Shown piece after piece: positions 48,324 to 49,836 of a stretch of DNA of 64,000 nt. Numbering within the stretch: position 1 is the first letter of the stretch; each line of letters opens with the position of its first letter. The notes beneath the pieces are model-generated. The model did no database searches and was not told where the DNA came from. It was given only the letters and a program-made list of their open reading frames with translations. The DNA lies in NCBI RefSeq assembly GCF_900090235.1, contig NZ_LT607750.1, forward strand, positions 5,013,001 to 5,077,000. Direction: 5' to 3'. The position numbers were made by a program, and so were the translations under genes. Source of the DNA: Micromonospora echinaurantiaca. GTDB lineage: Bacteria > Actinomycetota > Actinomycetes > Mycobacteriales > Micromonosporaceae.

Positions 48324-48428
48324 GTGCCTCACGGCGCGACGGTGCTCCACTACGACGCCGACCAGGACCGGATCGCCGCGCTCACCGGCCAGCCCACGGA
48401 GTGGGTGGCGCCGAAGGGCAGCCTCTGA
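48324..48428 (+). other. Short ORF or remnant in frame after the small gene
   Basis: After the TGA at 48297-48299 the same frame reads RTRPRRKLVPHGATVLHYDADQDRIAALTGQPTEWVAPKGSL, then TGA. The second half (VLHYDADQDRIAALTGQPTEWVAPKGSL) has protein-like composition. A GTG at 48324 could start a 34-aa peptide; stop readthrough or a split ancestral gene are alternatives. Confidence 0.35.
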
Positions 48429-48529
48429 CCCGGGCGACACTCCCGGGCGGTCCAACGGGGGCTTTCGCACACCTGTCGGGTAATTTCTTGGGGTCCGGAA
48501 CCCGGCCCACGACAGGAGAAGCTCAGCGC

Positions 48530-49048
48530 ATGGGCAAGAAGACGATCCACGTCTCCGACTTCAGCGGCACGGTGCTGCGCCCCGACGACGAGGTGGTCCG
48601 CGTCGTCGTGCTGGAGCACCCTGACCTGGTGGCCGGGCCCGTGCAACTGGACGCCACCCCGGTCGAGGTGGAGAGCATCGACGACGCGGCGCTGGACGTC
48701 GCGGTGGTCGAGATCCACGACCGGCACGGCGGCGGCGAACCGCGCCGGGTGGTACTGACCGCCAGCGAGTTCGACGCGATGGCCACCGACGTGCCGATGG
48801 CACAGCTGCTCAGGACCGCGGAGCGGGTCCGCCCGCCCAAGTCCCGCCGCAGCGCCGAGCGGCTCGACTACGGCACCGTCGAGCACGCCGGCAAGCCGCA
48901 CCGGGGCCGGGTCACCGAGGAGGAGGCCCGGCTGGTGCGCGAACGGCTCGACGAGGTGAACAAGCGCCTCGCCGACGCCGGGATCCGCCAGATCGACCCG
49001 GCCGACCCGGAGCACGCCGCCCGGTACGGCTTCCCCGCCACCTCCTGA
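48530..49048 (+). CDS. Hypothetical protein
   Basis: A 172-residue acidic, soluble protein. MGKKTIHVSDFSGTVLRPDDEVVRVVVLEHPDLVAGPVQLDATPVEVESIDDAALDVAVVEIHDRHGGGEPRRVVLTASEFDAMATDV looks like a beta-rich domain. Then a linker (RVRPPKSRRSAERLDYGTVEHAGKPHRGR) and a helical end (VTEEEARLVRERLDEVNKRLADAGIRQIDPADPEHAARYGF). The N-terminus faintly recalls Lsr2-type small DNA-binding proteins, but the AT-hook-like motif is missing, so I do not name it. The start has AGGAG at 12 nt. Confidence 0.78.
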   Translation: MGKKTIHVSDFSGTVLRPDDEVVRVVVLEHPDLVAGPVQLDATPVEVESIDDAALDVAVVEIHDRHGGGEPRRVVLTASEFDAMATDVPMAQLLRTAERVRPPKSRRSAERLDYGTVEHAGKPHRGRVTEEEARLVRERLDEVNKRLADAGIRQIDPADPEHAARYGFPATS

Positions 49049-49055
49049 CGACGCG

Positions 49056-49787
49056 TCAGGAGGCCTTCTTCGTCAGGGCTTCCAGCGCGGCGACGAGCCA
49101 GGTCTCGGCGGCGGTCTTGTCGACGCCGAGGCCGGCCAGCACGCCGCTGCCGTGCTCCAACTCCAGCAGGGCGAGCAGGATGTGCTCGGTGCCGATGTAG
49201 TTGTGCCCGAGCCGGAGCGCCTCGCGGAAGGTCAGCTCCATCGCCTTCCTGCTCTGCGCGTCGTACGGGATGAGGTCGGGGACCTCGGCGGCCGACGCCG
49301 CCGGCAGCGCGGCGAGCGCGGCCTCGCGGACCCGCTCCAGCGGGACGCCCTGCGCGACGATCGCCTTCGCGGCCAGCGCCTCCGGCTCGCTGAGCAGCCC
49401 GAGCGTGATGTGCTCCGGGCGGATCTCGGCGTGCCCGGTGGCCCGCGCCTCGTTCTGGGAGGCCATCGCCACGTTGCGGGCCCGCTGGGTGAACCGGCTG
49501 AAGCCCTGCTGCGGGTCGAGCGGCGCGTCGGCGGACTTCGGCACGAACCGCTTCTGCGCGGCCTGCTTGGTCACGCCCATGCTGCGGCCGATCTCGGTCC
49601 ACGAGGCGCCGGAGCGCCGGGCCTGGTCCACGAAGTGGCCGATCAGATGGTCGGCCACCTCACCGAGGTGGTCGGCGACGATGACCGCGCCGGCCAGCTG
49701 GTCGAGCGCGTCGGAGTGCGCCTTCTTGATGGCCTCGATCAGGTCGTCGAGCCGGACCGGGTTGTTCATGGGAAGTGGATTGGTCAT
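49056..49787 (-). CDS. Clp N-terminal-domain protein with HTH, probable regulator
   Basis: A 243-residue protein. Residues ~50-80 hold a helix-turn-helix-like segment (RRSGASWTEIGRSMGVTKQAAQKRFVPK). Residues ~95-235 hold two Clp_N repeats (FSRFTQRARNVAMASQNEARATGHAEIRPEHITLGLLSEPEALAAKAI and AMELTFREALRLGHNYIGTEHILLALLELEHGSGVLAGLG). There is no AAA ATPase domain, so it is not a ClpC but a DNA-binding relative. The ATG at 49787 lies 6 nt after a -10 (TAGGGT) without Shine-Dalgarno. ATG 49769 is an alternative. Two operators cover its promoter. Confidence 0.85.
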   Translation of the reverse strand: MTNPLPMNNPVRLDDLIEAIKKAHSDALDQLAGAVIVADHLGEVADHLIGHFVDQARRSGASWTEIGRSMGVTKQAAQKRFVPKSADAPLDPQQGFSRFTQRARNVAMASQNEARATGHAEIRPEHITLGLLSEPEALAAKAIVAQGVPLERVREAALAALPAASAAEVPDLIPYDAQSRKAMELTFREALRLGHNYIGTEHILLALLELEHGSGVLAGLGVDKTAAETWLVAALEALTKKAS

Positions 49788-49836
49788 GCGTCAACCCTAA
49801 GTTGACGCTACTGGCTTCGTCAACCATCGGTTGACG
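49788..49836 (-). promoter_or_regulatory. Leaderless promoter covered by two GTCAAC-N5-GTTGAC operators
   Basis: Minus strand: -35 TTGACG (49823-49818), 18-bp spacer, -10 TAGGGT (49799-49794), six bases, ATG 49787. Operator 1 is GCGTCAAC-CCTAA-GTTGACGC (49788-49808); operator 2 is CGTCAACC-ATC-GGTTGACG (49818-49836). Both contain GTCAAC-N5-GTTGAC, centres 29 bp apart, and they cover the -10 and -35 respectively. Confidence 0.75.

Follow-up and report, generated by a model that had tools for sequence, protein, structure and literature searches.

The clpC2 locus and its product

The stretch of DNA considered here, called the window throughout, comprises 64,000 nucleotides of Micromonospora echinaurantiaca and carries on its minus strand a gene whose promoter is covered by two palindromic operators (Table 1). 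Judged by its sequence, this gene is clpC2, an ordinary member of the known ClpC2 group. The nearest relatives of its product in the PDB are the ClpC2 chains 9p2p (1.9e-52) and 8ad9 (2.4e-39), with a further match to 8ada, the N-terminal part of Rv2667 (1.5e-29). The N-terminal domain aligns without gaps with residues 4–72 of Rv2667 in 8ada (4.7e-30), and D46, R57 and V72 coincide. Pfam finds Clp_N in two stretches (3.4e-21) and lists no AAA domain. An earlier note, drawn up from the sequence alone, had described a helix-turn-helix (HTH) segment joined to two Clp_N repeats without an ATPase, and this description is borne out, with the HTH represented in Pfam by a sub-threshold Myb-like match at residues 63–81 and nothing else; the motif is clearer in the two-gene homologues described below.

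Table 1. Positions of the clpC2 gene, its protein domains and its promoter elements in the window.
Feature	Position	Strand	Basis
clpC2 orthologue, 243 aa, ATG start	49056..49787	minus	Translation of the reading frame; PDB relatives
Clp_N half, residues 94–240, two repeats without AAA domain; ligand-binding in orthologues	49068..49508	minus	Pfam; PDB relatives
Proposed operator-reading helix, residues 73–81 (TKQAAQKRF)	49545..49571	minus	Covariation; absent from crystal chain 8ada (ends at residue 72)
Helix-turn-helix, residues 61–81 (ASWTEIGRSMGVTKQAAQKRF)	49545..49607	minus	Translation; two helices in model of homologous two-gene HTH protein (pLDDT 90.5)
Proximal operator GTCAACTTAGGGTTGAC (minus-strand reading); −10 begins in its spacer	49790..49806		Exact motif match
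−10 element TAGGGT (TAnnnT)	49794..49799	minus	Sequence
−35 element TTGACG	49818..49823	minus	Sequence; position conserved in relatives
Distal operator GTCAACCGATGGTTGAC (minus-strand reading); −35 in its right arm	49819..49835		Exact motif match

The design, which the earlier note took to be undescribed, has been published nearly point for point as mycobacterial ClpC2 (Taylor et al., 2023; PMC10030653). The window protein resembles Rv2667 of Mycobacterium tuberculosis (Mtb) and its orthologue in M. smegmatis (Msm) in domain order, N-terminal numbering and lack of an ATPase. The motif CGTCAAC-N5-GTTGACG is likewise placed next to the reading frame and repeated over the −35 and −10 elements, in a layout that is leaderless by position. 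The differences lie in the host and in a tyrosine at the F172 position: the cyclomarin-site residues Q94, F96, F172 and E181 of Mtb correspond to Q, F, Y and E (alignment read by eye), and this tyrosine also occurs in 20 of 75 ClpC2-type relatives. In mycobacteria, the motif lies 1–2 nt before clpC2, which was also judged leaderless by position. There, ClpC2 binds its operator in electrophoretic mobility shift assays (EMSA) and represses its own gene, and the repression is lifted when cyclomarin A is bound by the Clp_N half. Protection by ClpC2 was shown for the mycobacterial orthologues, and heat causes an approximately twofold rise (PMC10030653). According to a later paper, unfolded proteins also relieve the repression, and ilamycin and ecumicin bind ClpC2 without induction (PMC12913811). 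The sensing of proteolysis substrates or client proteins suggested in the earlier note is therefore partly in print, for cyclomarin A, heat and unfolded proteins, and the autoregulation that it proposed fits the published system.

Operators and promoter

Both operators are exact copies of GTCAAC-N5-GTTGAC, the outer C and G of CGTCAAC-N5-GTTGACG included, which confirms the reported pair of identical-core sites over the −35 and the −10/start. The proximal operator ends 2 nt from the ATG, and the −35 and −10 elements are 18 nt apart on the minus strand; the leaderless layout is judged from position. With up to two mismatches allowed, the motif occurs seven times in the window, whereas 100 shuffled versions gave 1.41 occurrences on average and never more than 5. 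A genome-wide motif search, which the earlier note had proposed, found three exact sites in the whole 7.2 Mb, the two clpC2 operators and one at C1:940298, together with 40 N5 places with one mismatch. The third exact site was considered as a trans target and rejected, as it sits within a reading frame for a sigma-factor-like product, where it probably arose by chance. In ClpC2-type relatives, the TA in the proximal spacer carries 1.5–2.0 bits, and positions 2–4 of the distal spacer carry 0.04–0.17 bits.

It might be supposed that another regulator owns these sites and that clpC2 is just its target, given that binding by the window copy is itself a prediction. This supposition has no direct evidence in its favour and is highly improbable, since two of only three exact sites in the genome lie here, operator binding by orthologues has been published (EMSA; PMC10030653), and the operator arms covary with the recognition helix of the adjacent gene itself, as detailed below.

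A two-gene form with a shorter spacer

Relatives were collected with the 84 N-terminal residues of the window protein as query (E ≤1e-3 in the family, ≤1e-6 in the class), and matches, weak HTH relatives included, turned up in 55 of the 61 genomes of the family and in 63 of the 197 genomes of the class. Among them is a second HTH type of about 75 residues, whose gene is usually followed within a few nucleotides by another gene that encodes Clp_N but no ATPase; such a gene lies downstream in all of the 30 best two-gene loci. With the two-gene HTH as query, 97 of the 197 class genomes matched (E ≤1e-6), and the form was seen, among others, in records of Micromonospora, Streptomyces, Amycolatopsis, Nocardia and Rhodococcus; for the two-gene HTH of the window genome, the named matches that come nearest are from Micromonospora. 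The window genome has both types, its two-gene locus (L073) lying at C1:4504222, where the two open reading frames (ORFs) overlap by 4 nt and where the only two exact GTCAAC-N4-GTTGAC sites of the genome are found. No description of the two-gene form was found in the literature searched, a search beyond whose reach most subscription papers lay. A candidate for such a Clp_N partner might be the small mycobacterial protein that PMC10864484 calls 'ClpC3'.

A model of the two-gene HTH (28 sequences; pLDDT, the predicted local distance difference test score, 90.5) shows one long helix and, towards the C terminus, an HTH whose recognition helix at residues 59–66 corresponds to residues 74–81 of ClpC2. 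Pfam places this protein just under its cut-off (HTH_11, 6.4e-5; HTH_23, 6.9e-5), and Foldseek and VIA return weak matches to the model, many of them DNA-binding HTH proteins, with 8ada not among the matches listed. For the full-length window protein, modelling from its sequence alone gave nothing usable (pLDDT 37.5).

Loci for comparison were the best matches plus picks further down the match lists, not every listed match being taken, and some queries and picks were aimed at enriching variant helices; the counts therefore describe associations, at frequencies that are not those of nature. Nine weak loci (L061–L066, L068–L070), with two-mismatch sites or none, were excluded before two sets were counted: one of 149 loci, and one of 213 distinct loci derived from 249, in which the palindrome search tolerated other arms. 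GTCAAG-type palindromes near the weak HTH matches L066, L069 and L070 were set aside as operators because, by eye, they lie at the start of frames coding for VKxxLT or VExxLT peptides. A further named set of 80 two-gene loci was selected from 566 by conserved helix peptides. The two-gene-type class includes stand-alone HTH genes, and a Clp_N partner ORF was detected in 104 of its 117 loci with a counted operator.

Spacer length follows the HTH type closely. In the 149-locus set, a site with at most one mismatch precedes 77 of 82 ClpC2-type genes, all 77 with N5, and 51 of 67 two-gene-type genes, all 51 with N4, while control segments yielded one site in 1075 and one in 717, respectively. Among the 213 loci, the start-proximal palindrome of the ClpC2 type is N5 in 76 of 82 (none in 5, an odd N6 in 1) and that of the two-gene type is N4 in 117 of 131 (none in 14). 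Where both types were read in one genome, 22 of 24 genomes have N5 and N4 as expected, two are without one operator and none contradicts the rule. The named set agrees, with an N4 site in 80/80, always 2–4 nt before the start, a pair of sites in 78/80 and a downstream Clp_N gene in 79/80.

The two-gene form thus shares with ClpC2 the same arms, the tandem promoter sites and the promoter spacing, and differs from it in the N4 spacer, in carrying HTH and Clp_N on separate proteins and in a histidine at the position of residue 78 (128/128, versus glutamine in 79/80 of the ClpC2 type). In both types, the distal site carries the TTGAC of the −35 in its right arm, and the proximal spacer contains the TA of the −10. 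Offsets between sites are mainly 28 or 29 nt for N5 and 27 or 28 nt for N4, so that the −35/−10 spacing is kept at 17 or 18 nt.

Residue–base links in the recognition helix

Variation within the helix goes along with variation within the arms. With lysine at residue 79, all ClpC2-type arms have C at base 6 (260/260), compared with 17/44 for glutamine; in the two-gene type, the corresponding figures are 326/360 for lysine or arginine, 12/38 for glutamine and 5/50 for A, T, N or Y. Counted by locus, base-6 C is lost in 10/11 ClpC2-type loci with another residue at 79 versus 0/66 with lysine or arginine, and in 24/24 versus 8/93 in the two-gene type. Furthermore, serine or threonine at residue 76 accompanies G at base 5 in half or more of a locus's arms in 24/24 loci, against 1/92 with alanine; three more loci with serine or threonine have no operator where sites were counted, and a single G-arm occurs in 14 alanine loci. 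Paralogues within one genome differ in the same way, for example in genomes G210, G115 and G381.

In scans of all alignment columns, the highest-ranking column for base 6 was residue 79, in the ClpC2 and two-gene sets alike, and residue 76 led for base 5 in the two-gene set. Within the ClpC2 set, the recognition helix came top for base 2 as well as base 6. Across 104 loci, the best columns of the Clp_N partner reached 0.47 and 0.33 for bases 5 and 6, versus 0.88 and 0.65 for the helix. The prediction that serine at 76 entails GTCAG arms is fitted by L156, while L163 has no palindrome and none was found at L222; L158 carries GTCAGC sites 17 nt before the start, outside the counted position. Residues 73–74 (TR) were considered as readers of base 2 and set aside as not secure, the top column in the two-gene set being R42.

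Which part of ClpC2 reads the operator

The published model assigns dimerisation to the N-terminal domain and DNA reading to a Clp_N helix (Mtb residues 174–189). In its favour, R185A/R189A weakens the EMSA shift, and the Msm equivalent derepresses twofold (PMC10030653). The pair is present in the window protein as R188/R192, and among the ClpC2-type loci R192 varies together with base 6. Nevertheless, this assignment appears improbable in view of the comparison. Identical arms precede HTH genes whose Clp_N domain is on a separate protein or was not found, and some HTH genes without an adjacent Clp_N by BLAST still carry sites (e.g., L161, L162, L164). The second arginine is R in only 13/59 aligned partner rows, at least two of the rows not being Clp_N proteins, and for bases 5 and 6 covariation is weaker in the partner columns than in the HTH helix. 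In addition, derepression is stronger, 4.6-fold, with R57A, a substitution in the N-terminal half (PMC10030653).

The two crystals of the published work cover residues 4–72, left after proteolysis, and 94–252 (PMC10030653), and therefore neither contains the recognition helix, which would span residues 73–81; the chain of 8ada ends at ...KSMGV72. The words 'HTH', 'helix-turn-helix' and 'linker' are absent from the main text of that paper. A 2026 paper recognised an HTH region in ClpC2 by its similarity to the antitoxin RelI (Rv2664, PDB 9sdc), already describing this similarity within the HTH domain region, and operator binding by this region is not assigned in the available text (PMC13284704). 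The window protein shares its N-terminal HTH region with RelI (1.1e-6). RelI, unlike ClpC2, lacks Clp_N and binds the RelS toxin, and its authors report no upstream inverted repeats and no evidence of DNA binding (PMC13284704). The window protein is not a short, HTH-only protein of the RelI type, having 243 residues and carrying Clp_N.

On this comparative evidence, the window protein is very probably an orthologue of ClpC2 in which the N-terminal HTH is the part that reads the operator, with ligand sensing left to the Clp_N half. DNA reading by a helix missing from both crystals, instead of by Clp_N, may be new with respect to the published assignment, which contradicts the DNA-binding role that the earlier note implied for its HTH segment; the comparison favours the latter. 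Several points weigh against this reading. Independent pairs of changes on well-supported branches number only one and two, although they run in the expected direction (1.0/1 and 1.9/2 on average), and the Fisher values ignore relatedness. Spacer length changes once on the tree, so that its match with HTH type is, as reconstructed, one old difference and not many events. In the ClpC2 set, R192 is one of the four highest-ranking columns for base 6, the published R185A/R189A effect stands (PMC10030653), and some loci lack sites in both the 149- and the 213-locus sets.

Alternatively, both halves may touch DNA, the HTH reading the bases and the Clp_N arginines adding contacts or holding the shape of the dimer; a Clp_N ligand would therefore be felt directly. 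Such an arrangement, which would reconcile the published arginine mutants with the covariation found here, is quite possible, if tentative, and is a sub-case of HTH reading, not exclusive of it. Against it, no solved Clp_N–DNA contact was seen, and ClpC1, whose N-terminal domain has the Clp_N fold and ligand site in common with ClpC2 and belongs, unlike ClpC2, to an AAA unfoldase, as in ClpC, binds operator DNA weakly, merely at the micromolar level and with little specificity (PMC10030653).

If the HTH reads the operator, a ClpC2 dimer would occupy both sites through its N-terminal domains, with helix 73–81 reading the GTCAAC arms. Since the −35 lies within these arms and the −10 is framed by them, a bound dimer is proposed to exclude RNA polymerase. 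Once an exposed peptide or a cyclic-peptide antibiotic fills the C-terminal Clp_N domain, the dimer would come off the DNA; the leaderless mRNA would then be made, and abundant ClpC2 would soak up the ligand and protect the ClpC unfoldase. For the window copy, this behaviour, its ligand and the route of release from Clp_N to HTH are inferred.

Outlying relatives and the neighbouring gene

Some relatives depart from the common arrangements. A stand-alone HTH relative (L161, G207:C1:2228146) has three exact N4 sites and overlaps by 4 nt an ORF with the membrane and ATPase domains of an ABC exporter (ABC_membrane in Pfam, 1.2e-34); its next ORF is not Clp_N. This suggests reuse of the HTH for control of export. 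At L140, L143, L146 and L148, the ORF after a two-gene-type HTH encodes about 330 residues, with a Clp_N-like part and a further C-terminal part; that of L140, the sole one of the four scanned, matches AHSA1 (9e-9), Polyketide_cyc2 (2.2e-7) and Clp_N (8.1e-8) in Pfam. The arms at L140, L146 and L148 are AGCAAC or CGCAAC. At L049 (G060:C1:526053), a ClpC2-type HTH is encoded by a frame of 115 codons that lacks Clp_N and has a single N5 site (one mismatch) near its start. In the window, an ORF at 48401–49048, with no function assigned, is convergent with clpC2 and ends 7 nt from the end of that gene (49056).

Implications

Altogether, these comparisons make it rather likely that ClpC2 belongs to an actinobacterial family of repressor-sensors, in which a small HTH and a Clp_N peptide receptor are either fused, as in ClpC2, or split, the receptor sometimes being fused to an AHSA1/SRPBCC-like domain. 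Residue 76 would specify base 5 and residue 79 base 6, and the N5 and N4 spacers would keep paralogues in the same cell apart with the promoter geometry fixed. Cyclomarin acts less strongly on mycobacteria because of ClpC2, and knowing which part binds DNA therefore decides how a ligand switches ClpC2 on. The new value lies in a testable correction of the DNA-reading site and in the two-gene form, which is widespread; the comparison also names the residues to change in a protein of a soil-type actinomycete. If the family is as proposed, the Clp_N helix would have been wrongly named in print as the DNA reader, and many of the Clp_N proteins that are still uncharacterised would serve to sense misfolded proteins or peptide antibiotics.
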